From NCBI RefSeq assembly GCF_026151205.1, contig NC_087078.1, forward strand, positions 15,889,118 to 15,953,117: a stretch of 64,000 nt of DNA, in the 5' to 3' direction. A model generated the notes under the pieces. The model was given only the letters and a program-made list of their open reading frames with translations. It was not told the origin of the DNA and ran no database searches. Shown here in pieces: positions 24,436-63,880 of the stretch (position 1 is the first letter of the stretch; each line of letters begins with the position of its first letter). Source of the DNA: Bolinopsis microptera. Lineage: Eukaryota; Ctenophora; Tentaculata; Lobata; Bolinopsidae. Both the position numbers and the translations under genes were made by a program.

Positions 24436-27400
24436 CTAATCTGGCCAGACTGTATCGGCAGCCCAGAGGTACTTGATCAGTTTGGCCTTAAAAGTAGAAA
24501 TCCGCTCTGACTGCCGGATACATACTGGTAGACTATTCCAATTCAGCATAGATCTATGAAAAAAGCTATTTCGGAAGGCATCCGAGCAGGGCACAGTGGT
24601 ACTCATGTAAGTTGAAGTATCCGACATATCAATTATTTGAGCATTGTGCCTAGTGTATCGGGTGCCCTCTGGACGGCATAGGACTATATATGTAGGGAGC
24701 GAAACTGGAATTATGCTATTCACTATTTTATAGAAGGTCATAAGATCGTTATAAATAAACTTCTGTTTAACAGGGAGAATATTTAGTTTCTTTTGCTCTG
24801 TAGCAAGTTTATCGTCATTATAACTGGAGTAAGGTTCACCATTGATCCATTTAATAGCCCTCTTTTGGATAGCAACAAACTGTTGAAGATGAGTTGCAGA
24901 TTGAGGGGACCATATGACAGAACAATGTTCAAATATAGACCTAATTAACGCTAAATAGAACGATCTTTTCTGCCTTTTATCAGTAGTGAAATGACATGTT
25001 CTCTTAAGTAGTCCAAGTCTAGATGTAGCTTTGGAAACAAGCGCTTTACATTGTGCACCCCAATTAAACCTGGAGTTTATTGCGACTCCTAAATCTGACT
25101 GAGAGGGCACAAAGTCAATATCACTTCCAGAAAGTTTATAAAAGAAGGTATTGAATGGCAAGTTATCCAGCACGTTTCTTTGCAGGGACACAGAGAGGGC
25201 TTTGCACTTTTGTGGGTGGAACTTCATTCGATTTCTCACTGACCAATCATATAATCTATTGATGTCATTTTGGATTATGTGATGGTCAGGGTAACCAAGA
25301 ATCTCCCTCCAAATTTTAGTGTCATCTGCATAAAGGGCGATATTGGTGCCTTCAGAGACACAGGAGAACATGTCATTTATAAATATTACAAACAATAAAG
25401 GGCCGAGTATAGAACCTTGAGGGACACCAGACCGAACTGGTAGAGAAGAAGACGTTTGGCCTCCTATCACTACTTGTTGTTGTCGCCCCTCAAGATAGGA
25501 CTTAATAAACTTAAGCATTAGTCCATCGACATTAAAAATATTCTTTAATTTACTTAAAATGAGGTCATGCGAAACGCTATCAAAGGCTTTCGCAAAATCA
25601 AAATATATTATATCAGTCCTGGACCTGTTATTCAATGCAAGTGCAAGATTGTCTGTGAAAGGTATCATTTGGGTTGTGCATGAGCGTTCATTAACAAAAC
25701 CGTGTTGTCGGTCATCCAACAGATCAGAACACGCAGCGTATAATGCAGTCTTTATGCACCTTTCAAAGACTTTCATTACAAGAGATGTTAACGAGATAGG
25801 CCTGTAGTTCTCAACCGAAGACTTATCGCCCTTTTTGTGCACTGGTACTACAAGTGCCAGCTTCCAATCAGGGGGTATGCATCCGCTCGAGAAAGACAGG
25901 TTAAATAAAACACTAAGTGGGTATGCAAGGCTTTGGGCACAGTTTTTGAGGACTCTCCCATGAATCCCATCAGGGCCAGGGGCCTTGTTAGGATTTAACT
26001 TTTTAAGAATCAACAGAACATCTTCTCTACTAAACACAAGACTTGAAAAACAGTCATCACGAAAATCTATGTCAATGCCATAATCGCTCTCTTGAGAAAA
26101 CTGCTCATAAAAATATTCGTTAAAAAGGGCAGCTTGATCAGATGGATTGTTTCGAAAGCGATTATGATATTTGACAGTTTCAGGGATCCTGGTTGACTTT
26201 GATTTAGATTTAACGTAGGTCCAGAATTTCTTGGAGATAAGAGCATCATCGGAGTCATCCTCAACACTGAGTCTCATTCTTTCGTCCATCAAATTTTTAA
26301 ATTTTGTGCGAAATGCACGAAACTTTTGTTTATGAGACTCAGAGTTGCTCCCCTTATGCCTTATTCTCCATTTCTCCTTATTTCGTAGGAGGCGATCACA
26401 TTCGGAGTCATACCATGGGGGCTGGAACTGAGACTTAATGGTCTTTTTAGGGATCCATCGGTCACAGGCTGCATCAAGAACTCCTCTGAATCGACTCCAG
26501 GCAAGATAAGGATCATTACACTCAAATATATTATCCCAATCGATGCTAAATAACTCAGAATTCAGGCCCCTAAAATTACCTTTACTATAATTAAAGATCT
26601 TTCTTTTAGGCTGCTTAATATACTTGGTCTTAATATCAATGTCAAATGTGATACAAAAGTGGTCGGACATACACATTTCGTTTTGATCTAAAACTTTAAC
26701 ATTCTTAATAAGGTTCTGAATGTTAGTGAACACAAGATCTAAGGTGTTGCCTGACTTGTGAGTAGGGAAACTAATAAGTTGTGTATGTCCGAGGTCATCA
26801 GTGAGAAAATTTACAAAGCTAGAGTGTAGCTGACAAGATGACTGACCATCTGGCCAAGAAATCGAAGCCAAATTAAAGTCCCCTACCAGAATGTGTCTTT
26901 GCAACTTTCTGGCAGATGCTAAAGTAACAAAATGTTTTTTGAAAGATTCAAAATTATCTAAGCCAAGCGTTCCTACTCTATAGAATGTTGATATACAAAA
27001 GTTTCTTCCACACTGAGTCTTAATTATGACGGATAATAATTCAGCTTGAACACTAACCTTAGAAAACTTTAGACTAGAGATATCAATGTCTGTTCTATGG
27101 GCAATCAGAACACCACCACCGTTTTTTCTGAATTTCTTGGGCTGGGTTGCATCCACTGGATGCGATCTTAAGGATCGGTCAAGCCTAAATACTTTGTATT
27201 TGTCAGGGAGCACCTCATTACTGAGAATGGAATTTTTCAGCCATGTCTCGTTTAGAATAATGATGTGAGGCTTATGTTTGTAGATATAACCATGAAATTC
27301 ATGTATCTTGGTCATATTTAGTGGTGGTGTTCCTGATGCTAGATCGCGAGTATTTAGGAAACCATGGACATTATTGTAAACAACAGATAAATTTGGTCCA

Positions 27401-27942
27401 GGGTTCAGTAAGGAACAATTACAAATTACTATCAGGGAAATATTAAGGAGAGATAGAAAAACCAGACCACACCTAGACATGACCCCAAGCCAGCTGCTGG
27501 TAATACCGAAAAGTAACTTAACAGTCTGTTTCGGTGACATGGTAGGTGACAGTTCAGTTTTTGTGGTAGATAGCAATTTTACAGAAATTGCAGTTAAGGC
27601 TGCCCCAATGCCCCTCTCACCCCTATACACAAGTTTGAAGTGTCTGAGAAAAATGGTACAAAATATTACCATAAAGTAAAGATTTATGGATGACCTCAAA
27701 CATGGTACAGAGTGTATTTTAGGTTGTAGGGGAGCACCAGGGAGTATATTAGCATCGATAGTCAAAGAAAATATATACAAAATAACATACAAATAAAATA
27801 TACCCAATAGAGCACATAACATATGACGAGACAGAAGACAGGACAACAAATTTTCCCCGTTACCTCTATTACTTTTACTGATGATAACATACCTAGAAAA
27901 CATACCAGTTGCAACACGGTGTTGTTGAGCCGATATTCCCAT
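24436..27942 (-). CDS. LINE-C ORF2: N-terminal hydrophobic/NPGP leader, APE endonuclease, reverse transcriptase
   Basis: 1,168 aa, uninterrupted, with an ATG start. Residues ~30-105 are rich in hydrophobic segments. A second hydrophobic run (159-175) leads to NPGP (180-183), and the APE domain starts at once (VVYNNVHGFLN). APE motifs: LNETWL, GGGVLIAHRTD, HILVGDFNLA, MSDHFCI. RT motifs: NPNKAPGPDGIHG, HKKGDKSSVENYRPIS, YFDFAKAFDSVSH, GVPQGSILGPLLF and the active site ALYADDTKIW. The C-terminus FRNSFFHRSMLNWNSLP is the usual CR1/jockey ending. No lesion was seen, so the protein could be active even though the copy is 5'-truncated. The leader may be translated 5'UTR or a real signal/2A-like region. 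Confidence 0.88.
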   Translation of the reverse strand: MGISAQQHRVATGMFSRYVIISKSNRGNGENLLSCLLSRHMLCALLGIFYLYVILYIFSLTIDANILPGAPLQPKIHSVPCLRSSINLYFMVIFCTIFLRHFKLVYRGERGIGAALTAISVKLLSTTKTELSPTMSPKQTVKLLFGITSSWLGVMSRCGLVFLSLLNISLIVICNCSLLNPGPNLSVVYNNVHGFLNTRDLASGTPPLNMTKIHEFHGYIYKHKPHIIILNETWLKNSILSNEVLPDKYKVFRLDRSLRSHPVDATQPKKFRKNGGGVLIAHRTDIDISSLKFSKVSVQAELLSVIIKTQCGRNFCISTFYRVGTLGLDNFESFKKHFVTLASARKLQRHILVGDFNLASISWPDGQSSCQLHSSFVNFLTDDLGHTQLISFPTHKSGNTLDLVFTNIQNLIKNVKVLDQNEMCMSDHFCITFDIDIKTKYIKQPKRKIFNYSKGNFRGLNSELFSIDWDNIFECNDPYLAWSRFRGVLDAACDRWIPKKTIKSQFQPPWYDSECDRLLRNKEKWRIRHKGSNSESHKQKFRAFRTKFKNLMDERMRLSVEDDSDDALISKKFWTYVKSKSKSTRIPETVKYHNRFRNNPSDQAALFNEYFYEQFSQESDYGIDIDFRDDCFSSLVFSREDVLLILKKLNPNKAPGPDGIHGRVLKNCAQSLAYPLSVLFNLSFSSGCIPPDWKLALVVPVHKKGDKSSVENYRPISLTSLVMKVFERCIKTALYAACSDLLDDRQHGFVNERSCTTQMIPFTDNLALALNNRSRTDIIYFDFAKAFDSVSHDLILSKLKNIFNVDGLMLKFIKSYLEGRQQQVVIGGQTSSSLPVRSGVPQGSILGPLLFVIFINDMFSCVSEGTNIALYADDTKIWREILGYPDHHIIQNDINRLYDWSVRNRMKFHPQKCKALSVSLQRNVLDNLPFNTFFYKLSGSDIDFVPSQSDLGVAINSRFNWGAQCKALVSKATSRLGLLKRTCHFTTDKRQKRSFYLALIRSIFEHCSVIWSPQSATHLQQFVAIQKRAIKWINGEPYSSYNDDKLATEQKKLNILPVKQKFIYNDLMTFYKIVNSIIPVSLPTYIVLCRPEGTRYTRHNAQIIDMSDTSTYMSTTVPCSDAFRNSFFHRSMLNWNSLPVCIRQSERISTFKAKLIKYLWAADTVWPD

Positions 27943-28136
27943 GGAACTTTTAAGTATATTATTAACAGAATTGTGTCTCGCCGTTGTGTTTTGTTAGGTA
28001 TTGTGCTATAATATGAAGTAACATACATTATGCTATCACTTCGTTTGAATACATATAAATAACATCCAAATGATCAGATCCAATAGGATACTGATGCAGA
28101 CAATGAAAAATTGAAATATTGAATTGGATTACCACA

Positions 28137-28735
28137 TCAGTATCCCATTGGATTAAACCACTTTGAGTGTATGATTCTGAGATAGAACTTTGCCAACACT
28201 GGCATCCCAGCCTTGGGGCTGGGATGAATATCATAAAAGCCCCTATTGTCACACTTAGGAAATAATCTCTCGTTTCTGTTTCCATAGCGGTCTAAGAAAG
28301 CCCAAAAAACATCAAGGTAAAACAGTTTATGCCTAGAGCAGCGATCAAAGATCAAATTATTCATAGCACAAACATTACCAGGGATTTTATCTTGTCCGTT
28401 GGGGTGGACTGGTGGAATAGCTTGTACAAAAACACGTGCATTTGGATAAAGTTTTTTTGCTGTCTTCATAAGGTCACTCACAGGGGTCTTGAGATGATTG
28501 ACACCCTGGGTACAGTACCGGATGTCGTTGGCACCGAAGCTTAAGAACAGTTTCTTTACCTGCACAAGAGGGTTCTTTGTATGAAAGGCCTCAATAGATT
28601 TCTGTATAGCTGAGATCTTAAGCCCACCCTTAGCTATGTTGGTGACAGTTTCTTTACCTCTACTGAGGCGATCAGCGTCCAATCGAGCAGCAAAGGAGTC
28701 ACTAGCACACCCCTCATTATATCCATGCTCAGGCC
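28137..28735 (-). CDS. LINE-C ORF1 fragment: SGNH/GDSL esterase domain
   Basis: The open frame continues above the first ATG (28,682) to about 28,735. That recovers block I (SDSFAARL) with the nucleophile Ser. Block III is SFGANDIRY and block V is YDIHPSPKAG with the Asp-x-x-His pair, so the catalytic set looks complete. SGNH esterases are known in ORF1 proteins of CR1/L2-type LINEs, where they are thought to act on lipids or aid RNP formation. The N-terminus is lost by truncation. Confidence 0.75.
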
Positions 28736-29336
28736 AGTGGCGTAACGAAAGGCCCCGCTGACCCCGCTGTGCATTTGAATGTGGGACAATTTCGAAAGCT
28801 TAACTAAAGTACTAGCAAAACTGTGTGTTTTGCTCTAGATACACAATTTTTTAGAGATTAAAAAAGGCCTGTAATAAAGTCCCTCACTGTTTACTACTGA
28901 CTGAATGGAAACCTACTTAACTCTTTGGATTGGTAGAACCTGTCTGGTTACATGAACATTGGAGCTAGTTTTAGATTAGCTCATTATATTATTGTTGACT
29001 TAGACTGCTTGGATGTATCACATCTCAACCATTGTTGGGTGTGTTACTTTGTTTTGGGATTTACTTGTAAGCTTTATTGATTTTATCCATAAAATTGCAT
29101 TTCCAATGATATTTATGTAACTTGAGAAACTTTTTCTACCAAAACGTTTTCGATCGGGAATCGTCTTTAAATTATTTTGGGGAATATTTTGACTTGATAT
29201 AACGACGTCGTCGTAATGACACAAGTGACTGATCAACCACCTTATTTTATATATTTTTAAAAAATAAAGTATTTATATTTTTAACTTGGGGTGTAAATAT
29301 TTTTAGGGATTTTATTTTTTTATTTCAGATCTGTCA
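28736..29336. other. Non-coding; possible DNA-transposon end at the left border
   Basis: It begins CAGTGGCGTAACGAAAGG, which resembles the terminal CAGTGGCG motif of several cut-and-paste transposons. No partner end was found. The rest is AT-rich without genes. Confidence 0.3.
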
Positions 29337-29902
29337 TACGGGTATATGGCCCCCAGAATATAGGTCGTTTTTTGAGCACTTAGAAACAGGTGTTAAAACT
29401 ACTTCTAAGCATGTTTAGGGCTGTAAATATGTACATAATAACCCTTTAAATGTTTCTTGGGTAGTTGAAAATAATTATTAGGTTTTTAAGTGTACTTTTT
29501 TTTCACCTGTAAAAATACCATTTTTTAACAGGGCCCCCAGAATATAGGTCCAAACATCTGTTCCTAAGTTGTTCTAAAATTGTCACAGACAGTTATATAA
29601 TGCAGTCAGAATATGTTGCTGAGACTGTATTGATGATGCCAATGGCTCCAGATACTAAATTGAAATGGTTTAGAGTATACTTAATAGCAAAAAATCAAAA
29701 ACTACGGCCCCCAGAATATAGGTATGCAAAAATCGTCCTCAAATACTCCACCTTCATACATTTTGATGATGCCATCTCTTCAGCATATGTTCTTTAACTG
29801 TTTCTCATCACTACCCCACATTCCTTAATGCTCAGGGTGACAGAGAAAATGCAGAATCTTGGTCGCTATTTTTTTTTAAAACCTATATTCTGGGGGCCAT
29901 AT
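29337..29902. mobile_element. TA-flanked MITE, left part with subterminal repeats
   Basis: After a TA dinucleotide (29,337-29,338) comes a 27-bp terminal repeat, 29,339-29,365, starting CGGGTATATGGCCCCCAG. Its perfect inverse is at 41,126-41,152, followed by TA. The core GGCCCCCAGAATATAGGT recurs at about 29,530 and 29,704 and inverted at 29,881. The TA duplication suggests a Tc1/mariner-mobilised, non-autonomous element of ~0.6 kb. LINE-D split it inside its right terminal repeat. Confidence 0.65.
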
Positions 29903-32900
29903 TTAGAATTAGAATTAGAATTAGAATCAAATTTACACAGCAATACAATAAGAATAAAAAATAATTTAAGAAGCTTCAATCTGCTGTGCAGGACATTCAA
30001 GTCAGTCGAAAACTGTTAGCAGAACACCCTTCTAGGGACATAAGGATATAGTATGTAAAACATAATGAGTAATAAATTAATGAGTGATAAAATAAGATAT
30101 GATTTAACAGTGAACTGTGGGCATGAAGGTAACAATTAAGATTACATAGATGCCCACTTTGGGATTACGTTAGTAATGTTATTTACAGTTATATACAGAG
30201 AAGTATAGAACAATAATAGATTGGCAATGATAACAAATGGGAACGAGTAAAGGAGATGTTTAAAGTTCTATACTTCTGGAAATAGGTCATATATAACGCA
30301 GGGGGCCTTTCCACCCGACAAAAACTCCAGCACCATAAAATTTATTTCAGTTGTCACATAGCTAGAGTGTAGAAATAGTCGAAACTATTGTTTATTTCAT
30401 AGGATGAGACTCCTTGAATTACATCTGACATAAATTTAGATTTCATACATTGTGAGAATTTTACACTACATTCTATAGTCCTTATGTTCTCTGGAATTGT
30501 ATTCCAACATTTTGCACCTAAATATGTAAAGGTTTTGTGTGTTCTGGATTTGTGAATATAAAGGTTGCACCTCTCAGCATCACATGATCCTCCGGATACA
30601 TAAGACAATTTATCTGTGAATGATGATGGTGCAGCCTCATTAAGAATTTTATACATATACGTTGATAGATGGAGTTGTCTTCTTAAGTGTAAGGGTAACC
30701 ACTTCATATTTCGATATACATTTACTGATGGTTCCTGCCAATGAACATCCAGAGCAATTTTTGCTACTTTCTTGTATAATATATCAAGAGAATTAAGTTT
30801 GGTTTTGGCAGCCCTACACCATATTATATCCAGGTAGTCGAATTGGGGGAGCATAAGAGCATTTACAAACATTTTTCTATATTTCAGTGGAAGAAGATTT
30901 TTCGACCTGTATAATGCCCCTATTCTTTTAGCAATTTTTGATTTCACATAATCAATATGGTCTTGAAAGTTCAATAAATTGTCTATCATGAGACCTAAAT
31001 ATTTTTGAGATTTAGTTTCTTCTATAAATAGGCATTCTTTTTCCAAATCCAGAGGGATTGACAACGTGTCCAGATTAGGTGATCTATCAAATACAATGAA
31101 TGAAGATTTTGCAGCATTTAGCCTCAGCTTGTTGATTCTAAGCCATTCATACACAATTTTCATATCCTTAATTACATTCTCATATATGCCTCGGGAAATG
31201 TTATCAAAATATAGTGCACTGTCATCTGCAAATAAGTAAACAGTAGATTGTGTGCAATTTCTACTGAGATCATTTATGAATAAACTAAATAGAATTGGTC
31301 CTAATATGCTACCCTGTGGCACACCTGTTTTAACAGGGAGTGATGTGCTTACATTACCACGTATTTTGGTGTGCTGCTTTCTGTCCCCAAGGTAGCTTTT
31401 GAACCACTTTATGACAAAGCCATCAACTCCATAATACTTAATTTTTTTAATAAAATATTATGGCTTACTGTGTCAAAGGCCTTTTTAATATCTAAGAATA
31501 CAATTGCAGGTTTCTTCTGTGATTCCTTAGACGTAAATATTTTATCAAATAGATTAAGCATTAGAAAAGTGGTGGAATGATCTTTTCTAAATCCATACTG
31601 ATGGTTGGTAAGCAGTTTATTGGTTTCAACATACTCTGTAAGCTGTTGGTTAACAAAATATTCTATGCATTTTCCAAGTAGGGGGAGTATGGATATTGGC
31701 CGGTAGTTATTTGGATCATTAGGGTCACCAGTTTTAAGAATTGGGGTGACTGATGCAATTTTACATGCCAACGGCATTGTTCCACTTTTCATACTAAGGT
31801 TTATAATATGAGCTACTGGATCGATGATTTGGGGAATAATATACTTATATACTTTAATGGGCATGATATCGTTAATCGATTTATCTGATGGTATACTGAG
31901 TATATATTCTTTTACTTGTTCAACAGTCACCTCTTCGAATACAGAGAGTTTACACTCTGTTGGAGGCGGCATATATTCTAGGAAGTCGTCTGAATCCTTT
32001 TCCTTAATCGATTCTTGTATTATTGTACCAACTGTGGCAAAATGCAGGTTAACTCCGTTAACATTTAAGTTGCTTGGGGAAGAGCTACTTATTTTTCCAG
32101 GTAAGTTTGAAGCATGTTTGATAGTTTTCCAAATACCTTTCAAATCGTTTTTTGCACTTTTCACAGTAAGGTCCTGAACAATATTTGTACGTCTGTTTTC
32201 TTTGGATAATTTTGTCACATAGTTTCTTTGGGGACGATAGTTATCCCACGAAGTAGAGCATTTCTTATGTAGTTCACTTTTTCTGCATTTACATATTCCA
32301 TTAATACAATTACACTTGAATTTGTTTAATTGTCCTAAACACTTTCTATACTTTCTGAAAAGCATCTTCTTCTTCCGTATTTCTGCCAACAGTTCTTTAG
32401 AGGGATTACAAAGAAAGTTACTATTACATCTTATCTGTTTAGGTGGACAGTAATTGTCATACGATTCCTGGATGTGATGATTAAGTCCATCTAGGGCATG
32501 GTCTACATTAGTACAGCTTAGAATATTACTGTAGTTACTGCAGGATCCCAGAAAATAGCTTAAGGCTTTTAGATTGTTTAAGGAGTGGTCTCTGATAAGG
32601 ACCTTCTGGAATTTACTAGCTTTATTTACTTTAAAGTCGAGAACACATTTGAGAGCTTGGTGATCTCCTATTCTATCATCAAGTACTTTACACTCTATGA
32701 AATTAGAGTAACAGTTAGTCATTACAACATCTATTGTGCTCTGCGTTATTCTACCATCTAAGTTTGCAACTCTAGTAATTCCTGTAACAGTCTGTATCAT
32801 TCCAAAGAGCTTCATTGTTATATCTAACTTTTTATAATCTAGATCAGATAAAGAGTTTTGGTTAACATTAACATCGCCAATCCATATTACTTTCTTACCT

Positions 32901-33189
32901 TGAAGTTTCATCATACATTCAGTCATATAATCAAGGAAAGTATCTAGATGACAAAAGTTTTGTGATCTGTAGAAGCAGCAAATGTAAAGATTGGCGTCCT
33001 TGAGTTGTATCCATAAAGCTTCGATTTTAGAAATATCAGAGTAGGTTATATCTAAATTGAGTAATTTGTGGTTAACATTTTGGTTGATCAATATACCACA
33101 CCCTCCTCTTCCTCTATCGTTAGGTCTATCACACCTTATAAAATCAAAGTTTAAGGGTAAGTTAAGTGTACTAGTGTCTATATTAGATT

Positions 33190-33229
33190 TAAGGTTTGTC
33201 TCATTAATTCCAATTATGTCAAGCTTTTC
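33190..33229. repeat. 40-bp target-site duplication of REL-2 (left copy)
   Basis: Starts TAAGGTTTGTCTCATTAA and ends CAAGCTTTTC. Identical to 37,641-37,680. Both are LINE-D APE-domain sequence. Confidence 0.92.
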
Positions 33230-34550
33230 CCTGCTTGATGTTTATCAGGAGTTCGTTGTGTGGTCAAGGTTCAAGCTTAAGTCGTCTAAGTCTAGGGCAC
33301 TAGTCTACCAGAAGGGAGTGACAGTGGAGTGGGTTGTAGAGAGTTCAGAAGGTAGTCAGGCGAGGTTGCAGCTTAGCGGGGAGGTGATCCCGAATGTATC
33401 TGAGAAACCAATCAAGTTTCTAGGGAGGTGGATTCGGGCAGAAGGAAAGGACAAAGCTATAATCGAGAAAACACACGAGGATCTTGTTACATACCTCAGT
33501 AGACTCGATCTTAGCTCCCTCACCGGCCTGCAGAAATGTTGGGGGTATCAGTATATGGTCCTTCCAAAGATGAAGTGGCCACTTGCCATTTATGATATCC
33601 CGATCAGCACTGTTTCTCGCTGGGAGCAAACAACTAACAGTCATCTCAGAAAATGGCTAGGAGTGGGACACACGCTTAGTAGCTCTTGCCTGTTTAGTCA
33701 TTCATCCAGTGTTGCTCTCCCCATCGACAGCCTAACCGACACTTGGAAAGTAGAAAAGTGCCGTCTCTTGCAGTCATATCAAACATCTCAGGATGCTTTG
33801 ATCAGAGCGGTGCAACCCCAGGTGCGGTCTGGGAGAGTTTGGAAGGCAGATGCTCAGCTTCACGAAGCTGAAAGAGACTTGGTGTGTGAGTCAGTGCGAG
33901 GTATGGTGCAACCTCTTAGTAGAGCGGGAATTGGTTTCGGTGATTGGAAGAAGCCCTGGGAGAAGATGTCAGAAAAGGAGCAGCAGAGGGAGGTGTTAGA
34001 TAGGGTTAAGGAGAACATCAGGAAGGAAAGAGAGGTGCAGTTGGGTACGTTGGAGATGCAGTCCAGGTGGGGTAATTGGAGAGAGCTGGTGACAAGGACT
34101 GACATGAGCTGGCTCACGCTCTTCAAGTATGGGGACTCATTAATCGGTTTTCTGCTTAGTGCTGTGTATGGCACGCTTGTTACACCAGCTTTAGCATCCA
34201 AGTGGAGCGAGGATGAGGATGGGATGTGCAAGCTGTGTGGTGACAAGTTGGGAACTGTGCCGCATATTCTGGCTGGTTGTCCTGTGGCACTAAGTCAAGG
34301 GAGATACCGATGGCGCCACGATAAGGTGCTTAAACAAATAGCAGACCAAGTGAAATTCCATTGTGAGCGGAGAGTCAACAAGAGGAAGAGCTCTTGTGTC
34401 ACTCGGAAAGCCATTGAGTTTGTTCCAGCAGGAGGGAGGTTTAAGGAGGTGAAGAGGTCGAAAGTCAGTGAGTTTGGGATTCTGAGTGGGGCCACTGATT
34501 GGATAGTATTAGCAGACCTGGATGAGCAGCTGAAATTCCCGTCGGATATA
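33230..34550 (+). pseudogene. REL-2 RT thumb and CCHC-like finger (5' part of split ORF)
   Basis: The frame reads KPIKFLGRWIRAEGKD, then HLRKWLGVGHTLSSS, CKLCGDKLGTVPHILAGC and YRWRHDKVLKQIA, up to LKFPSDI at 34,550. It lacks RT palm motifs A to C, lost by 5' truncation. The start given for this frame upstream of 33,230 is antisense LINE-D sequence. After removal of the insertion it runs on in frame at 36,733. Confidence 0.8.
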
Positions 34551-36718
34551 TGTATGTATGTATGTATGTATTTTGACACGGGGCAGCGCTAGACCCCATG
34601 TAGTGCCCTCAACCTACTTTTAGATTTGAAGGTCATAAAGGCGACAACAATGCCAAGAGGACAGCGCAAGCCGGTGGGCTGTACACTGGGCACGCGCGCG
34701 TAATAATAGAGCTCAAACAGGTAATAGACCCCGCGAGCATATAGAATCAGGATTTTACAGGATGTGGGCAGCCGGCCCTGTGAAGGTGATGGATGCGTGC
34801 AAATCTGAGGGCTTGAAGCGAGTGTATTGTGGAGCTAGCGTACTCTGATAAGTGAAGTAGCCCGAACCAGGTAGCTCACCTGCTCCGCATCGCGGGGGGC
34901 CGCTCCAGTTTACAGATGTACATGCGGAGATATGTCGACGCTCGTGAGTGAATGGGGAATAGCTGATTTGTGCGAAGGTAATGTGTGGGTTATGATGGTG
35001 CTGTTACTTTATAAGTTCTAAGCTTGTAGAATGTGTTGCAAAAACCATCCTAATTGAGGTTTATTGGTTGGCGTATGTAGTGAACTAGTGGGGTTTGACG
35101 ATGAAAGAGCGCTAAGATAATTTTGGGAATGTAGTATGGGCAGTGACAGATTCAAGGTTGATGGAGATAATTAAAACAACGAATATAACTGCAATTGTAA
35201 AAAGTAATAGCAAATATTTGTAAGTGAATCTCGATTGTTTGTGAATCCTCTTTATCGACACTATGATGCTGAGGCGAAGTTCGGGACTGATCTGGTATCA
35301 TCTTCCTTGAGTATACTAATCAGATCAACCTGGAGTGATGGAACGTTTCAATTATGTGGATTTGTCGTAATCTCGTGGAATAGTCGTAGGCTTGTGCGCG
35401 CGCAGGCTCGCGCGCGCACTAAATTTTCTGTTTAAAAAATGACGACTATTAGGTTGCTACGTCCTTGAGTTGTATGGCGTTCGCGCGTTACGTTTAATGC
35501 GGGAAATTTGAAGGACGGATTTAACTGGTTTGAGTAACTGGATTTCATTGAAGTTGTGTTTGGTGGAGCAAGGCGGTAGGTTCGTTTTTTAGGGGTGATT
35601 AGTGGGAGTGTTCTAACCTGGTGGTGGTGGAGGAACTGCTAATACCGGATGAAGGGGTACCCTGGAGGCAGTGATTGGATCTCTACTGGTTTGGAGAGTG
35701 GGAGTCCTTTATTTAGGTTGTCTGATGAATATCTGTGTCAAGTCGTCAATCTGGAATAACTCGAGTTTTAGTAATTTATAAAGTGGGCTGTAACATTGCG
35801 TTCCAGCCCTGAGAGGGAAAATAAACTAGTAAGAAGATGTAATTATTGGAAAATTGATGCAGATTACATTTATTGACTGATCAGAACAAGGAATAATGTT
35901 ATGTGGAGTCCAACTTGTAGTTATTCATCTCATGTGATGGTTTAGCGAAGATTTCTGGATCGGAGTAGTATGATGCAGATATCAGATTTCGTAGTGCTGA
36001 TCCATTGTGTTGATGTACTGCTGCGTAAACTGGTTTCCACATATGTATGTCACAAGGGTAGCCGGGGTACTCGAATCCTAATTAGATCTCTAGCTTTGTG
36101 TTCGCCGTAGAGTGGAGAGTGGATATCCATAGTGCTGTGTACCTGTGTAGGGTTGAAATTCCAAGGTTGCTGAAATGATGATGGTGTTAGAGAAAGACGC
36201 AAGGTGTAACATGTGTTACACCGTGGTAAGAAAGGCATTATGGTAGCAGAGAATGCATTATGACAGGAGAATGAGCGAAAGTAATGCAAATGAAAAAAAA
36301 AGGACCGAATTGCTGAGGTGATTGAGTGAGTGAGATGCTGCATTGCTACTGGCTGACTCGCCAGCAACAATGCAAGTCCAAGAAGAAAGAAGGAGAGACA
36401 CTGTCCGTTATCTGGGTGAGCCACCACCGACAGTGCTCCCACTTATGTGGGGCTGAGGGTGTTGGCTCCAAGAACCAGCCGTGAGCGAACAGCGCCTGTC
36501 CCCCTCTATGGTTAACTTGAGAGTAACAGGACTATGCCATTCTCCAGGCCAATCCGTTCAGTAACCAGCTGACCAAGCACCACCTCTGATGGAAGATGTG
36601 GTTAGGATTGGACTTCGCTAGGATTTGTCAGTTTTTCTGTAGACACTAATGCTCCCTCGAGGAAAGACATGAGCCCCGGCGAAACTGACCAAAAACGTGG
36701 CAGGGATTCTCACCCTCC
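34551..36718 (-). mobile_element. 2.17-kb element without RT inserted in REL-2
   Basis: A perfect 14-bp duplication, TCCCGTCGGATATA, flanks it (34,537-34,550 and 36,719-36,732). A (TACA)n tail at the low-coordinate end (TGTATGTATG on the plus strand) indicates a LINE-type 3' end on the minus strand. No RT or endonuclease is visible. One 130-codon ORF (36,050-36,442, minus) near the 5' end starts MGALSVVAHPDNGQ and contains a hydrophobic run, FFLLGLALLLA; its function is unknown. It is best read as a non-autonomous or internally deleted retroelement. Confidence 0.6.
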
Positions 36719-36732
36719 TCCCGTCGGATATA

Positions 36733-37095
36733 GCAACGACCAGATTAAGACCAGATTTGGTTCTTTTCTCGAAAGCTTCCAAGAGAGTAATCTGGTGGGA
36801 GCTTACAGTACCGTCGGAAGAGAGAATAGCTGCATCCCATGAGCTGAAGCTTGATCGGTATAACAGTCTACAAGCGGAAATACAAGCTAATGGGTGGTCA
36901 TGTTTCAGCTTTGCTGTTGAGGTTGGTGCTAGAGGTGTGGTCGCAGCAAGTTTGGAGTGTGCATCAAGGAAGATTGGTCTGACTGGGAGAGCCCTCAAGA
37001 AGTTGGTCAGAGATTGTGGGAAGGATGCAGCCCATTGTTCAAGATGGATTTATCTGCTGTCTAGGAAAAGAGAGTGGGAGATGAGAGCTGTTTGA
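36733..37095 (+). pseudogene. REL-2 PD-(D/E)XK endonuclease (3' part of split ORF)
   Basis: It continues the frame left at 34,550 (PSDI-ATTRLRPDLVLF). The nuclease signature is RLRPDLVLFSKASK, VIWWELTVPSEERI and LKLDRYNSL, with the PD, E and K residues of restriction-like-endonuclease LINEs. The tail FAVEVGARGVVA...RWIYLLSRKREWEMRAV ends at a TGA. ORFs on the opposite strand here (36,618-36,998) are shadows. Confidence 0.8.
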
Positions 37096-37640
37096 GCTTT
37101 ATGACTTCACCTAACAGCCAGAGGTGCCATAAGCTAACTCGTCGTAAATCGCGAGCTCTAGCAGGTATCCTCGGGTGATTGTCAGATCAGATGGTGGTCC
37201 AAGAGAGACTGCTGGGGCACCTGACAGAAAACCGTATCGCAATGAAAGCCCCGAAACGGTGTCAGGTTTGTGACTGAAGATTCTGATCAAGCTCAGGGTT
37301 GAGTCTACACAGTGTCGCCACTTGCCGATGCCAGTTGATGCGAGAAGACACTGATGTAAGTGGGAAGTTATGTCTAAGAAACAGCGTGTGGTTCGGGTGC
37401 CGGTTGAACGCATGTAAAAGGGAGGGTATATCCGTATTTCGCTGCTAGTGATGCAGTCCTTAGCCCGGTAGCTAAGGCTTCCCCGTTTCTCGCTCATTTG
37501 TGCTCCGATGGGCTTGTGACCTCTGCGGGGGTCAAGTGCAGGATGAGGGACATGGCTGACCAGGAGAAGGTTGTTTTTGGGAGATAGAGTAAGGTTGGTT
37601 TGGTGTTGTGCCTTCGCAGTTTAACTGTATCTTTACTCTA

Positions 37641-37680
37641 TAAGGTTTGTCTCATTAATTCCAATTATGTCAAGCTTTTC
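37641..37680. repeat. 40-bp target-site duplication of REL-2 (right copy)
   Basis: Perfect copy of 33,190-33,229. LINE-D continues at 37,681. Confidence 0.92.
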
Positions 37681-38091
37681 GCGAAATATTAGCTCCTGTA
37701 GTTCGAGAGTTTTTGCCAGATTAGTCAGGCCACCCTGTATATTACATAGACCAAGAGAGAGATTATCGTTTATTGAGGTACGAATAAGGTTAAACCAAAG
37801 CTAATGGGGAACAAATCCACATGCAGTCTCCTCAAGTAGACTAAGTTTCAAATCATGTCATACATATGATTTAAATTGGATTTCGGATCAGCAATCATAC
37901 TGCAGTTTAAATCATAAAATTTAACAGCATAAAATAGTAACTCACTTCTGTTTGTGATAAATATAGCTTGAGAGATATAAAAACGTTAAATTATTAGAAA
38001 TTTGTGCTGATCTAACATTTTAAACCAGATAAAACAGTAATCCTGTTATTATTCATGTTGATACCCTTGGATTATAGAATTTTAATGAAGT

Positions 38092-40005
38092 TTAACACAA
38101 GTGAGTTACATATTTGAGATGCTTACCAAGCCTGGCAATTCCTAACTTATTGAGGTGCACATTGTCATGGCCCCTGCCAAAATACTTGTCCTTTCTATTA
38201 TAATTTAAAGTAAAGAGATTATTTTCATGTTCTGTGTTAATGTATATTAGCCCATGCTTATAACACATATTCTCTAAGTATCGATTAAGTCCCTGCACTA
38301 TAATGTTCTTACTAGTGACAGCTCTAGGCAGAATATTTAAGATATATATTTTTGCACTATTAAATTCTGCCCACAATTTTTGAACAAATTCTTCCATGTC
38401 ATTGGTGGCACTGTTGAAGTTCATTGTGTTGAGGTCAATTGGATCAACACAGTTAGTACCAGTTAGTAAAACAACCTTTTTAACCTTTTCTTTGTTGAGA
38501 ACTTTGAACTGACTGTCGCTAAAGAGTCTTTGGGACATTTGGATTGAGTTGGCCCCTGGGTAGAAAAATACTTTGGCCTTCTGAGATGAAGAGCTCAACA
38601 GTTTTTCATTCAGATGCCTAAACATGCTGCTGCTGATATAAACAGTGCTCACATCGTTGGGTGTCTCCTTTTCGAACAGTTGTTGTCTGTTAACATGCCG
38701 CCCTGATTGATGGGGTGGTGGAGATGTATAGGGTGGGGTTAGAGGTCGGTGCTGATAAGCACCATTCGTTTTCCTTGATGGATGAACTATAAACTCGTCT
38801 TCTTGATAAGGTACATAGCCGCTGGAGTTTGAGATGTTTTCATATGGGTCATGGTAATTGTCATTGCACATGTTGGTTGGTGTACTTGTTAATCTTTGGA
38901 CAACAGCTACAGGTTTGATCAGTCTGAATGTGATACTGATCCTTTTGTTTGTACAAGATGGTTGAGTACAGATTTCATGTCTGTAATGAAGCTGAGATTT
39001 TTTAGACATGATACAAACATCCCCATGCTTTAGATCTAGGGCAGACACCACTTTTCCTGTTTGAATTTCTGTGAACTGCATCGTCCTAGAGGCACCCAGA
39101 GAAACTGTAACAATGTAAGAGTTTTCATCGATGCATTCTTCATTATCACTATGGATAGGCATGCATTCTGTCCCAGTACTGTAGTAGTTTACGAGAGCAC
39201 TGTTGTAAACATAATCCGGGAGTAACACATCAAGATATGAACAGATAGCAGCCAGATAGGACTGATGTGGTATCTCCTTCGCCTCGTGACTTCCCCCATT
39301 ATACACATATGGGAAGTCCCCAAAGTAAGCTGTTTTCCTATTTTGAAACTGGTGGCTAAAATCCAATTCTCTCAGGAAGATGTCTAAGGAGAATTTTTGA
39401 AACGGTGCCTGATCAATGAGTTCAACAGGTGGTATGATAATGTCAGGGCTTTCGTCATTTACACTTAAGGCCACACTAGATATGGGTGTTACATCTATTT
39501 CAGCATAATACTTGCCACTCCATGGATTGACAGATCCTGCACTCCCACTGATTTGATTTTCTGTGTTGTTGGAAATAATAGAATCTGGTGCTTCTATGAT
39601 GCCATCACTATTGATTAGCATGAAAGATTCAGGCACCTCGCATTCACTGTCATATTCAATCTGATCGTTTTCAAATTCTGTCTGAACTGCAACATCTGAA
39701 CACCTATCCAGGACAGCCCGATAATCTATTGACTGATTGGTACTTTGATGTAACAACGTACCATTAATCTCTGCTATAGTCTGAGAAGTTTGAACAATGT
39801 CTTCTAGGATGATCACTTTCCGCTCGAGAAACTTGACATGAGATTTGAGTGCAGTACAGTTTTTGCATTTTTGATCACATTCCGACAATAGTTTTCCAAA
39901 AAATATTTCCATTGAATCGTCCATGATATTGAGTTGATGATTTGAATTAAGTTGTTGATTTGAATTGAAGCAAATTGAAGAGTTCACATGTGAGATTTGT
40001 TCCAT
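38092..40005 (-). CDS. LINE-D ORF1: coiled coil + AlkB-like dioxygenase + SGNH esterase
   Basis: 637 aa, ATG start, no lesion. Residues 43-50 form a Cys cluster (CDQKCKNC), followed by a coiled-coil-like stretch (51-75). Residues ~200-365 carry a full AlkB-family 2OG/Fe(II) signature: LVNYYSTGTECMPIHSD with H285-x-D287, IVTVSLGASRTMQF, LKHGDVCIMSKKSQLHYRHEI with H343, and RISITFR with R355 and R361 (2OG-binding arginine pair). Residues ~380-450 are a Pro/polar linker. Residues ~452-637 are an SGNH/GDSL esterase: SSSMF (block I Ser), LLTGTNCV (block III) and GHDNVHLNKLG with D614-x-x-H617 (block V). SGNH domains are known in LINE ORF1. AlkB enzymes remove alkyl adducts from nucleic acids, and occur for example in some plant RNA viruses. 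Acting on the element's own RNA is inference. Confidence 0.85.
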   Translation of the reverse strand: MEQISHVNSSICFNSNQQLNSNHQLNIMDDSMEIFFGKLLSECDQKCKNCTALKSHVKFLERKVIILEDIVQTSQTIAEINGTLLHQSTNQSIDYRAVLDRCSDVAVQTEFENDQIEYDSECEVPESFMLINSDGIIEAPDSIISNNTENQISGSAGSVNPWSGKYYAEIDVTPISSVALSVNDESPDIIIPPVELIDQAPFQKFSLDIFLRELDFSHQFQNRKTAYFGDFPYVYNGGSHEAKEIPHQSYLAAICSYLDVLLPDYVYNSALVNYYSTGTECMPIHSDNEECIDENSYIVTVSLGASRTMQFTEIQTGKVVSALDLKHGDVCIMSKKSQLHYRHEICTQPSCTNKRISITFRLIKPVAVVQRLTSTPTNMCNDNYHDPYENISNSSGYVPYQEDEFIVHPSRKTNGAYQHRPLTPPYTSPPPHQSGRHVNRQQLFEKETPNDVSTVYISSSMFRHLNEKLLSSSSQKAKVFFYPGANSIQMSQRLFSDSQFKVLNKEKVKKVVLLTGTNCVDPIDLNTMNFNSATNDMEEFVQKLWAEFNSAKIYILNILPRAVTSKNIIVQGLNRYLENMCYKHGLIYINTEHENNLFTLNYNRKDKYFGRGHDNVHLNKLGIARLGKHLKYVTHLC

Positions 40006-41125
40006 TCCATTAACGTTACATTCGTATTACATTCGTATTACTTTGGTCATACCTCAATAAATGTATTTAATTGTAGTTGTGAAAATAGTTTAAAACTATA
40101 TATATATATATACCCGTAATGAGTAAAATCTTTAATTTTACTAGTTAAAAAGCTTTCATGCACTCATTTAGTAGGGATCTTAACTAAATACTTAAATAAG
40201 ATTGAAGGAGTGTCCCTAGATATGATTGAGGGGGGCTGTTTTTATCTGTATCAATACAATGTGCACCTCAATGACTGTAAATCAGATATTTTTGGCCGCC
40301 AAATTTTTTTAAAGGCCTAACTCAAAATTCTGTCCCAAAACTTAAGGTCATGAGACAATTCTACGTTGATTCTGAAAATTTCATGTGAAAATATTGAAAC
40401 CCTATTGAGTTCTATTGTTTTGAGCGAAGTCAGTTTGAGATATTGGCGATTTTGTTCATTTTTTGCGATTATTTGAACACAGAATCCACAGTTAGGTAGA
40501 TATTGAGCTGATAATCATAGAGAATGTGTAATATATGCTTACCTTCCATATAAAGTTGGTTTCATTCAAAAATATTGATATTTGACCAATTTATGGACCA
40601 AAATCGATCAAATTTGGTGCGTATGCCCAAATATGGGCATATGGTTTTTGTTTTTATCCCATAACTCGGCCAATTTTTATCCAATTTTGATAAAACTTGA
40701 TATGTGGGTTCAGGAGACTAGTAGCTACAAGTAGAGCATCCCAAAGCATGGTTTTGGGCATGTTCAGGGTTTTTGAAAATTGTGGTGGCCATAACTTTTT
40801 TCCAAATTGTCAGTTTGCAGATGTCTCGATAAAAAGATAGCTTAAAATAATACTTATACTCATACCAGTAGTCTTAATGGCATGTGTTGGACAGATTTTT
40901 GTCATGACAATTTTTCGCCATATTTACCCCTCTAGAAAATGACAACATCGTTTAAATCTTTCGCTGTCATGACCAAATATACCAAAATACCTCATGTAGG
41001 TCCAAAATTTTTATCCAGAAACATTAGTTACATGTTTTACTCCAACATAGCAGTAACAGATCCCATTAGTATCGCTTATCTTGGTTAGAACTGTATCCAC
41101 TAACATGACCTATATTTTGGGGGCC

Positions 41126-42254: not shown

Positions 42255-43439
42255 ATGTTTTGCAGAAGACTCATTGCTAATGCCAAACAACTTGGTCGTG
42301 CTACCAAAATAACTTTTGCACAAGGCCATGGTTACACAAGGGAGGAGATATTTCTCATGGAGAAGGAGCGACAAGGATTAGTTGCAAGATTGAATTCTGA
42401 AGTAAAAAATGATTGGCATATTCCAAATCATGTACTGGTAGGACAAGCATTCTCTTATGAAACAGAAATGTCTTCATTTGTCAAGAGAATTGGCTGCAAC
42501 AGCAACTATATCCCTGAAAAGAGTAGAATTGAAGGAGAAGAATCTTTGCTTTCATCAGCTTTTGTTGTGCTTTTGTCACATCCCTCAACCTGTCATGACC
42601 CAGAAATTCTTAAACTCAAGGCAGAAATCTGTGAGTTGGGACGGTCACAACTCTCTTGGTATATCATGAACTACTTTGCTGATGTTTTCCCCAAAATCTC
42701 TTCTGAAATCCTGTATAAACTATCAGTACCCGAGATGTGTTTCTCACGCCCAAAATGTTACTCCATGTACAAGCAGCTATGTCTCCACGAGTTAATCAGA
42801 AGCAAGTCAGAAGATGCTCTGACTTTGGAGGAATACTCAGACGTTACGGGGGGCATCTTCCTTTCAATACTCCTCTTCGATGAACATCCTTACCTTTCTG
42901 CTCCCACATTTTTACAATCATGTATTCTAAACTACTATGCTCAGTTAGATTTCCGGAATGTTGTCAATCACAAAGATCTCAAAGATGCTGAAAGCAAACT
43001 AAAAGAACATTTGTCATCTACAGAGGCTGGTAATCCAGAGGTTAGGATTATAGGTATCGATGGCGAGGACACAGCACTCCCCTTGTACAATATTGGTATA
43101 TTTGTGGACAGTGAGTGTATAGCGAATGCTGCAGATAATTCTGTCGAGGATGCTACCCTTCAGGCTTGTAATGCTGCTCTCACCCGGTTTAATTTTTCTG
43201 AACGAAATGATCGTGCTTCTATTAATAATCTTGATTTCTCCAATCTTTCTATGGATCTCACTTTCAAGGCTAAAGAAATTGAAGATAAACTGCGTTCTAT
43301 GTTAAAGGATGTTAGTTTAGCAGAATCAGAAATGGAGATGCAGAGTGTGACTGATCATAAGAAATTTGTTACAAATTATGAGAGTTACAAGAATATTTTA
43401 ATGACCAGAGAACCGGAATCTGAACTTGATAAATCATGA
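42255..43439 (+). CDS. MRPL44: Mitochondrial large-subunit ribosomal protein mL44
   Basis: 394 aa in one exon. mL44 is an RNase III-fold protein of the mitoribosome, generally thought to have lost nuclease activity. The central region (residues ~45-235) fits the degenerate RNase III fold. A double-stranded RNA-binding-like segment follows, with TALPLYNIGIFVDSECIA and ALTRFNFSERNDR, closely matching the animal mL44 pattern (ALPLY.VG...A..ALR..FTENR). The first 30 residues are basic with few acids (MFCRRLIANAKQLGRATK), suiting a mitochondrial targeting sequence. A C-terminal tail of ~75 residues extends beyond the human length. TTTTTTTGCAG at 42,237 and CTTTTACAG just before the ATG are candidate acceptors. 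Striatin starts 457 bp downstream on the same strand. Confidence 0.82.
   Translation: MFCRRLIANAKQLGRATKITFAQGHGYTREEIFLMEKERQGLVARLNSEVKNDWHIPNHVLVGQAFSYETEMSSFVKRIGCNSNYIPEKSRIEGEESLLSSAFVVLLSHPSTCHDPEILKLKAEICELGRSQLSWYIMNYFADVFPKISSEILYKLSVPEMCFSRPKCYSMYKQLCLHELIRSKSEDALTLEEYSDVTGGIFLSILLFDEHPYLSAPTFLQSCILNYYAQLDFRNVVNHKDLKDAESKLKEHLSSTEAGNPEVRIIGIDGEDTALPLYNIGIFVDSECIANAADNSVEDATLQACNAALTRFNFSERNDRASINNLDFSNLSMDLTFKAKEIEDKLRSMLKDVSLAESEMEMQSVTDHKKFVTNYESYKNILMTREPESELDKS

Positions 43440-43895: not shown

Positions 43896-63880
<19,985 letters not shown>

Follow-up and report, generated by a model that had tools for sequence, protein, structure and literature searches.

An AlkB-type dioxygenase fused to an SGNH hydrolase in a LINE ORF1 of Bolinopsis microptera, and the recurrence of the pair in further LINE groups and in a Helitron

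The window, a stretch of 64,000 nucleotides from the ctenophore Bolinopsis microptera (assembly GCF_026151205.1, contig NC_087078.1, positions 15,889,118 to 15,953,117), contains a copy of a long interspersed nuclear element (LINE). Its first open reading frame (ORF1) encodes a protein of 637 amino acids (aa), called P0001 here, in which an AlkB-type dioxygenase domain is followed by an SGNH hydrolase domain. L-numbers denote loci of the B. microptera genome and C-numbers its contigs. The features of the element are given below, where APE is the endonuclease and RT the reverse transcriptase domain of ORF2, A1 and A2 are the profiles described further on, and scores such as 1.4e-14 are E-values.

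29903..40096, minus strand: whole LINE copy, interrupted by a nested element; 5' end at 40096, 3' end at 29903 (blastn against L039)
38092..40005, minus strand: ORF1, 637 aa, fusion of AlkB and SGNH (open frame and Pfam)
39748..39945, minus strand: helical N-terminus, residues 21-86, which includes Cys-x3-Cys-x2-Cys and may form a coiled coil (AlphaFold2 and sequence)
38911..39414, minus strand: AlkB-type dioxygenase domain, residues 198-365 (PF13532, profile A1 and fold match)
38095..38652, minus strand: SGNH hydrolase domain, residues 452-637 (PF13472 below cut-off, profile A2)
37641..37800, minus strand: opening part of ORF2, where the APE domain begins (aligned to the uninterrupted ORF2 of L039)
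33230..37640, no strand given: nested mobile element within ORF2 (40-bp duplications at 33190-33229 and 37641-37680)
31409..33229, minus strand: ORF2 continued, remaining APE and first RT part (RVT_1 1.4e-14; endonuclease profiles just 0.003-0.004)
30354..31457, minus strand: end of ORF2, remaining RT and C-terminus, in a different frame (RVT_1 1.9e-19)

Two pieces of the LINE were aligned by blastn to its relative L039 with 98.4% and 98.6% identity, and the 3' end consists of repeated TTCTAA units. A preliminary description of the window, made from the letters alone, had located ORF1 at 38092-40005, which was correct, the strand being minus. It had also placed ORF1 directly upstream of an APE-RT ORF2. 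An ORF2 does follow on the minus strand, but in the window copy it is split and frameshifted: the frame begins near 37800, a nested element of 4.4 kb flanked by a 40-bp duplication divides it, and a shift of frame occurs between 31409 and 31457, so that this ORF2 is broken. In L039, ORF1 is followed by a single unbroken ORF2 frame of 998 aa (Exo_endo_phos 6.3e-6, RVT_1 3.3e-39). APE and RT in one frame were seen by Pfam in L039 and L042. Neither a Gypsy-type polyprotein nor long terminal repeats (LTRs) were found in the window LINE; its ORF2 is of the APE-RT kind and its 5' leader is unlike the simple-repeat 3' tail. Presumably the element is CR1/L2-like. The profiles and the unbroken ORF2 of L039 agree with the earlier proposal of a LINE ORF1 with a genuine AlkB-SGNH fusion.

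The AlkB domain was identified with PF13532 (2OG-FeII_Oxy_2), which matched residues 243-361 at 5.5e-23 with 82.6 bits, the cut-off being 31.2. The profile search that had been proposed for residues 200-365 was therefore positive, the frame is intact in one piece, and the five residues named beforehand as AlkB hallmarks, H285, D287, H343, R355 and R361, were invariant in an alignment of P0001 with 29 bacterial AlkB proteins (A3). Profile A1 was built from 13 transposon AlkB rows reaching down to 27% identity to P0001, and the iron and 2-oxoglutarate (2OG) ligands were complete in 13 of 13 rows. When A1 was run against solved proteins, ALKBH3 was matched at 3.5e-30, ALKBH2 at 1.7e-25, ALKBH8 at 1.4e-14 and E. 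coli AlkB at 2.7e-12. Weaker matches were a rice AlkB-like entry (1.4e-5) and entries of N6-methyladenine (6mA) demethylases and ALKBH1 (9e-5 to 6e-3). At E <= 0.01, A1 found neither ALKBH5 nor FTO among the solved proteins; ALKBH5 was present, ranked lower, in the Foldseek fold search with the ORF1 model. A chance motif match as the source of the AlkB call was ruled out by the profile E-values.

The AlphaFold2 model of P0001, for which the input alignment was the bacterial AlkB rows themselves, had a mean predicted local distance difference test score (pLDDT) of 58.6, with very poor linkers and a poor to moderate SGNH part. Within AlkB residues 221-360 the block means were 85-93 except for two blocks with 67 and 76. 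At the N-terminus helices were predicted at 21-46 and 51-86 with block means of 53-75. The best solved folds in Foldseek, 3bty and 8jnr (2.0e-12 and 4.3e-12, template modelling (TM) scores 0.72-0.73 by target length), are those of ALKBH2 and ALKBH3 at 24-25% identity. With a profile score above the curated cut-off, the residues HxD...H and R-x5-R and an AlkB fold, the domain belongs to the AlkB-type dioxygenases. All 13 A1 rows have serine in the motif R-x-S-x-T-x-R, where ALKBH2/3 and nearly all bacterial rows have asparagine (R-x-N-x-T-F-R). The host ALKBH8-like gene has serine at the same position as the transposon AlkBs.

The SGNH part of ORF1 was matched by PF13472 (Lipase_GDSL_2) at 7.8e-6, which is under Pfam's cut-off (26.9 against 32.9 bits). 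Profile A2, from an alignment of the SGNH part of 13 related ORF1 rows, matched two solved structures, the SGNH protein 2hsj (3.2e-14) and, at 1.7e-7, the LINE ORF1 esterase 4c1b. P0001 as a single sequence did not match 4c1b at E <= 1. S460, G516, N518 and H617 were invariant across the 13 rows, and D614 is present in the window ORF1. The complete SGNH set reported in the preliminary description (block I Ser, GTN, D614-x-x-H617) was thus borne out by A2, with PF13472 remaining below its cut-off. Among the best 50 fold matches listed from the PDB for the ORF1 model there was no SGNH structure, all being AlkB-family.

Several LINE groups, and also a Helitron, carry the AlkB-SGNH pair, in the following arrangements from N- to C-terminus:

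Class a, 637-, 611- and 551-aa frames: helical part, AlkB, SGNH
Class b, 593-631-aa frames: AlkB, SGNH
Class c, 586-749-aa frames: Cys-rich or PHD-like finger, AlkB, SGNH immediately behind
Class d, 777-884-aa frames: AlkB, long middle part, SGNH
Class e, 478- and 485-aa frames (L154, L155): AlkB, SGNH
Class f, Helitron frames (L041 with L043; L046): SGNH, AlkB, DUF6570, Helitron_like_N, PIF1

In class c the SGNH domain begins three or four residues past AlkB. Of four class c frames scanned for PHD, three gave scores below the cut-off (L056 1.1e-4, L050 4.6e-3, L045 6.7e-3) and L057 gave nothing at 0.01; the finger of L047 and L049 was recognised by eye. Both class e loci had been candidates for SGNH-only classes, which was dropped when AlkB was found in L155 by PF13532 (4.8e-16) and in L154 by profile A1 (3.8e-22). 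From their domain make-up, L154 and L155 are probably LINE ORF1s. Beside the AlkB-SGNH frames, RVT_1 was detected by Pfam in L039, L042, L044 and L045, and an RT by motif and tree only in L141-L143 and L145-L148. In L144 an RT frame of 250 aa was not seen. By eye, the ORF2 of finger-bearing LINEs (L141-L143, L147) starts with a Cys-rich, PHD-like stretch.

In the Helitron the order of the pair is reversed compared to the LINEs, with SGNH preceding AlkB. L043 continues the L041 frame and has PF14214 at 1.1e-22 and PF05970 at 6e-22 in a frame of 3388 aa; by Helitron_like_N and PIF1, L041 with L043 is a Helitron Rep-helicase frame. In L046, SGNH, AlkB, DUF6570 and the start of Helitron_like_N lie in a single frame. 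Its PF14214 match is partial (28.1 bits against 28.9), the sequence examined ending inside the domain.

The genome of 264,652,675 bases in 232 contigs was then considered as a whole. PF13532 gave at least 151 matches (150 of 587 candidates scored), with internal stops in one listed row, and some are cellular genes, such as the ALKBH2 orthologue L001 and the ALKBH3-like L003. The host gene L058 looks like an ALKBH8. The DNA of the window ORF1 had 45 matches; 11 of these, including the window's own, span all 1914 bases at 99-100%, and the full-length frame is kept in eight (L009, L011-L014, L016-L018) and not in L010, L015 and L019. Among the loci examined, AlkB domains were counted when they exceeded 140 aa and had E < 1e-20, so that shorter or weaker matches were dropped beforehand (for example L019, L022, L024, L027, L029 and the ALKBH8-like L058). 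This left 54 domains in 48 distinct places, three of them cellular. The residues H-x-D...H...R-x5-R were intact in 45 of the 45 transposon places, and in 39 of them SGNH lies in the same open frame; intact copies are over-represented here, since the counted places are mostly drawn from the best-scoring matches. As to the other six, L010 has SGNH in another frame, L149 and L150 look cut by foreign sequence, and L021, L023 and L030 are partial or interrupted.

Among the 150 PF13472 matches listed (150 of 424 candidates scored), at least 108 have a same-strand AlkB match within 2.6 kb. Among the 42 without a noted AlkB neighbour are the top scorer, whose frame of 216 aa may be a host gene, numerous short frames, one class of 426 aa and another with long frames that scores near 30 bits. 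The window ORF1 is one member of a large set of AlkB-SGNH transposon proteins in this genome. Copies with the same domain order, for which a genome-wide search had been suggested, were found and a one-off capture was rejected; the fusion is real, but the single-element scope of the preliminary description was too narrow. In scans of viral contigs no relatives were found, and the seven phage records with a match were all less than 32% identical. Decayed AlkB-like stretches with many stops and alternating orientation were observed on C5, C10, C11, C12 and C13, spaced by about 13.4-13.6 and 35.8-35.9 kb, as if in a repeated unit of about 49 kb. Besides the separate ALKBH3-like gene L003 there is a cellular-looking AlkB frame, L002 (C2:9636400-9636948), which has a Gly/Arg-rich N-terminus and is up to 51% identical to Bacteroidota AlkB.

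The 637-aa and 611-aa ORF1 types were compared on their ORF2 backbone. They are 66% identical in AlkB, 61% before and 51% after it, and their DNA has about 70% identity across the first half. The elements that carry the two types, represented by L039 and L148, match at 98.2% across 3.47 kb, beginning 17 bases ahead of the ORF2 frame and reaching the 3' end, and at the junction in L033-L036 the identity was 97.7-97.9%. The shared ORF2 follows on the same strand, at most 2.5 kb downstream, in 11 of 13 matches of the 637-type and 13 of 16 of the 611-type, a count that covers 29 of the 45 ORF1 DNA matches; the window copy is among those without it, on account of its nested element. By eye, two alternative 5' ends were distinguished, each occurring with both ORF1 types. 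Since diverged ORF1 types stand on a near-identical ORF2, ORF1 was probably swapped as a unit, through recombination or template switching. The paired types make ORF1 exchange visible at nucleotide resolution. An inverted repeat of 30 nt with 77% identity (40032-40061 and 37769-37798) lies in the 5' leader and at the ORF1-ORF2 junction and so flanks ORF1, where the ORF1 types swap; it could base-pair in RNA or aid recombination.

The ratio of non-synonymous to synonymous substitution rates (dN/dS) was calculated pairwise by NG86. In the 777-aa class the AlkB values were 0.05 (L040/L044) and 0.06 (L048/L044), two pairs that are not independent and have a dS of about 1; the others were 0.18 (L055/L056), 0.17 (L047/L049) and 0.17 (Helitrons L041/L046). 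A dN/dS below 1 in AlkB, as had been asked for at the outset, was thus observed at 0.05-0.18 in five informative pairs. For the SGNH-bearing part the values were 0.19 in L040/L044, 0.19 in L048/L044, 0.09 in L055/L056, 0.18 in L047/L049, 0.17 in L041/L046 and 0.32 in L052/L059. The N-terminal and linker parts gave 0.41 in L055/L056 and 0.63 in L047/L049, the Helitron pair L041/L046 gave 0.52 in the linker and 0.76 in the repeats, and the other parts of L052/L059 gave 0.94. The window ORF1 compared to L034 had 0.11 in AlkB, at a dS of 2.1, and 0.20 in the N-terminal part; in the pairs window/L042 and L051/L053 the AlkB dS was saturated. Judged by these ratios, the constraint on AlkB is about equal to that on the esterase and exceeds that on the linkers in three of the five informative pairs.

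The AlkB tree had 32 rows, of which 14 came from transposons, four from host genes and two from human fragments, the remaining 12 being drawn from 79 extracted bacterial domains. Thirteen of the 14 transposon rows were together on one side of a branch with a support of 94/77, the 777-aa row standing apart. A Helitron AlkB nested within the LINE AlkBs was drawn with 88/86 but was given up as demonstrable, as a Helitron-free LINE clade was not rejected (p 0.283). The 593/599 group was recovered in the RT, AlkB and SGNH trees alike, the finger-bearing group in the RT and AlkB trees only and the 637/611/551 group in the RT and SGNH trees only; the 777-aa class was a long branch in this comparison. 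Agreement among the three trees is a leaning and no more.

The zebrafish ZfL2-1 ORF1 protein (PDB 4c1a, 4c1b) is described in PMC3905857 as a dimeric coiled coil with an active esterase that binds acidic phospholipids. Like ZfL2-1, the ctenophore ORF1 lies upstream of an APE-RT ORF2 and has an N-terminal helical part and, further on, an SGNH domain whose blocks are Ser, G-x-N and D-x-x-H, whereas an AlkB dioxygenase sits between the two only in the ctenophore protein. Because AlkB is present, the window ORF1 is, by its domain make-up, a further ORF1 type and not a plain coiled-coil-plus-esterase member. The SGNH domain in LINE ORF1 was already known (PMC3905857; PMC4120745), and the word AlkB does not occur in the available text of either paper, the latter a survey of 448 Jockey-superfamily ORF1s. 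In bdelloids, a GDSL/SGNH ORF is found in several retroelement classes of one animal group (PMC5408684); unlike here, where a class II Helitron shares the pair, these are retroelements, and AlkB is not mentioned in the text available. The Ty3/Gypsy elements of Phalaenopsis have an AlkB in a separate ORF2 of 565 aa that is ALKBH5-like and active on N6-methyladenosine (m6A), reported from one plant lineage (PMC9289625). They too are retroelements with an AlkB-superfamily domain, but as LTR elements they differ from the LINEs and the Helitron, in which AlkB is SGNH-fused and, by its profile matches, nearest ALKBH3 and ALKBH2 and not ALKBH5-like.

ALKBH3 and ALKBH2 of animals are the closest solved sequences and folds to the transposon AlkB, which differs from them in being part of a two-enzyme protein, in the serine for asparagine and in its 24-25% identity to the best two folds. 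The plant RNA virus replicases are likewise mobile or viral elements with their own AlkB, and their E-values in the viral fold library place them well up the ranking. However, these matches are long polyproteins with low TM-scores and a large root mean square deviation, and the AlkBs of giant viruses matched cleaner, in the fold comparison only. AlkB-bearing LINEs or Helitrons were not found in open PMC papers, subscription journals, non-PMC preprints and Repbase reports being outside this scope, and the AlkB passages of PMC11294593, PMC10161547, PMC7915175, PMC3944005 and PMC9406493 do not treat them. In the preliminary description the fusion was given as not known among described LINE ORF1 architectures, and no identical published one was found in these open papers. 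Judged by the same papers, what appears new is that AlkB and SGNH are fused in a LINE ORF1 and that a Helitron has the pair too; each domain by itself was already known in retroelements.

The role of the ORF1 proteins is a long-standing question in LINE biology, and a conserved, apparently catalytic AlkB gives ORF1 a clear chemical activity to examine. Since AlkB is also in a Helitron, its likely substrate is narrowed to something common to unrelated elements. LINEs and Helitrons share a single-stranded intermediate, the type of substrate of ALKBH3-kind enzymes. As a whole, the data are best explained by an ORF1 protein whose AlkB would clear alkylation of the 1-methyladenine (m1A) and 3-methylcytosine (m3C) type from the element's own single-stranded template or product, a reading to which we give an even chance. 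The helical N-terminus would let the protein coat the element RNA, as in esterase-type ORF1 proteins, and the SGNH part would tether the particle to membranes. The AlkB part would strip m1A- and m3C-kind alkyl groups from LINE RNA and cDNA and from Helitron single-stranded DNA, so that polymerase-stopping lesions or marks would no longer abort transposition. The kinship to ALKBH3/2 and the sharing between LINEs and Helitron favour such template cleaning over m6A erasure, though the serine for asparagine makes this less certain. If AlkB cleans templates, base alkylation or methylation would be a real limit on transposition. The data suggest that a selfish element may repair its copies, or remove marks from them, as it moves. 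More tentatively, and with a chance clearly below even, AlkB and SGNH may form a portable two-enzyme module that is exchanged and kept by LINE groups and Helitrons and services single-stranded transposition intermediates by template repair or un-marking.

The strongest alternative to template cleaning is that AlkB erases a host-placed mark on transposon RNA or DNA, such as m6A, 6mA or N4-methylcytosine (4mC), and does not repair damage. The orchid Gypsy AlkB demethylates m6A RNA in vitro and counter-silencing was proposed for it (PMC9289625). Occurrence in LINEs and Helitron alike would suit a host-wide mark, which would point to an unknown silencing mark in ctenophores, possibly the sister branch to all other animals. 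The domain is, however, closer to ALKBH3/2 than to ALKBH5 or the 6mA demethylases, and the bacterial-type N6/N4 DNA methylase PF01555 was not found when the genome was searched in six frames, exon by exon (MT-A70 and other methylases were not searched for). We consider mark erasure possible but unlikely. Distinctly less probable is an action of the pair on proteins or small molecules of the host or the particle, by hydroxylation and ester cleavage: non-nucleic-acid targets occur among some AlkB homologues, and the SGNH domain so close behind AlkB in the finger-bearing classes allows a joint action, yet the nearest relatives are nucleic-acid repair members.

We further doubt, a little more strongly still, that the AlkB fold is a Gag-like structural binder of RNA or DNA with incidental catalysis. 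A catalytic mutant of the orchid AlkB protein retains RNA binding (PMC9289625), and ORF1 proteins are presumed to package the element RNA (PMC3905857). If the fold did nothing but bind, some of the ligands should have been lost, yet they are intact in all 45 counted places and all 13 A1 rows. Finally, a host ALKBH gene captured once by a LINE as a chimera without a role, or simply misread, for which the host would have an ALKBH2 orthologue, an ALKBH3-like gene and presumably an ALKBH8 to offer, was ruled out by the recurrence in at least 151 PF13532 matches and many families, by the low dN/dS and by the clustering of 13 of 14 transposon rows away from the host genes.

Several observations weigh against the template-cleaning reading. 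The case is built on sequence, recurrence, ligands, selection and exchange, and activity, expression and substrate are all putative. The weaker AlkB blocks of the model (pLDDT 67 and 76) are those with the iron ligands. The Pfam match of P0001 begins at profile position 66 of 194, so the substrate lid may be partly missing, and with serine in place of asparagine the specificity may differ from that of ALKBH3. The acid of the SGNH triad is lost in three of 13 rows, which have N, N or H in place of D614. In the nearly identical pair L052/L059 the AlkB dN/dS was 0.47, on three synonymous and five non-synonymous changes. The N-terminal parts of the 777-aa class were constrained too (0.17 and 0.15), though less than AlkB. 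The transposon AlkBs as a whole need not go back to one origin: this class was outside the others, though one clade was not rejected (p 0.119).

Some further features of the window were noted. For the nested element at 33230-37640 the 40-bp duplication is unusually long. A long frame on the plus strand (33045-34592) extends across the edge of this element and has a zinc-knuckle-like end (zf-RVT 0.042, below the cut-off). At 24436-27993 on the minus strand there is a frame of 1185 aa with RT motifs by eye, probably a second LINE. Just upstream of it, at 28137-28799 on the minus strand, lies an SGNH frame of 220 aa (PF13472 6.8e-9), which by eye looks similar to the 485-aa class. Near this second LINE no AlkB match was found, and it is perhaps truncated on its 5' side. 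The plus-strand single frame of 394 aa at 42255-43439 had no Pfam match at 0.1; we take it to resemble the mitochondrial ribosomal protein L44. An open frame at 46817-47377 on the minus strand is built of a short tandem repeat. Around the LINE insertion, a motif of 21-22 nt, TATGGCCCCCAGAATATAGGT, is repeated on both strands at 29345, 29529, 29703, 29881 and 41126.

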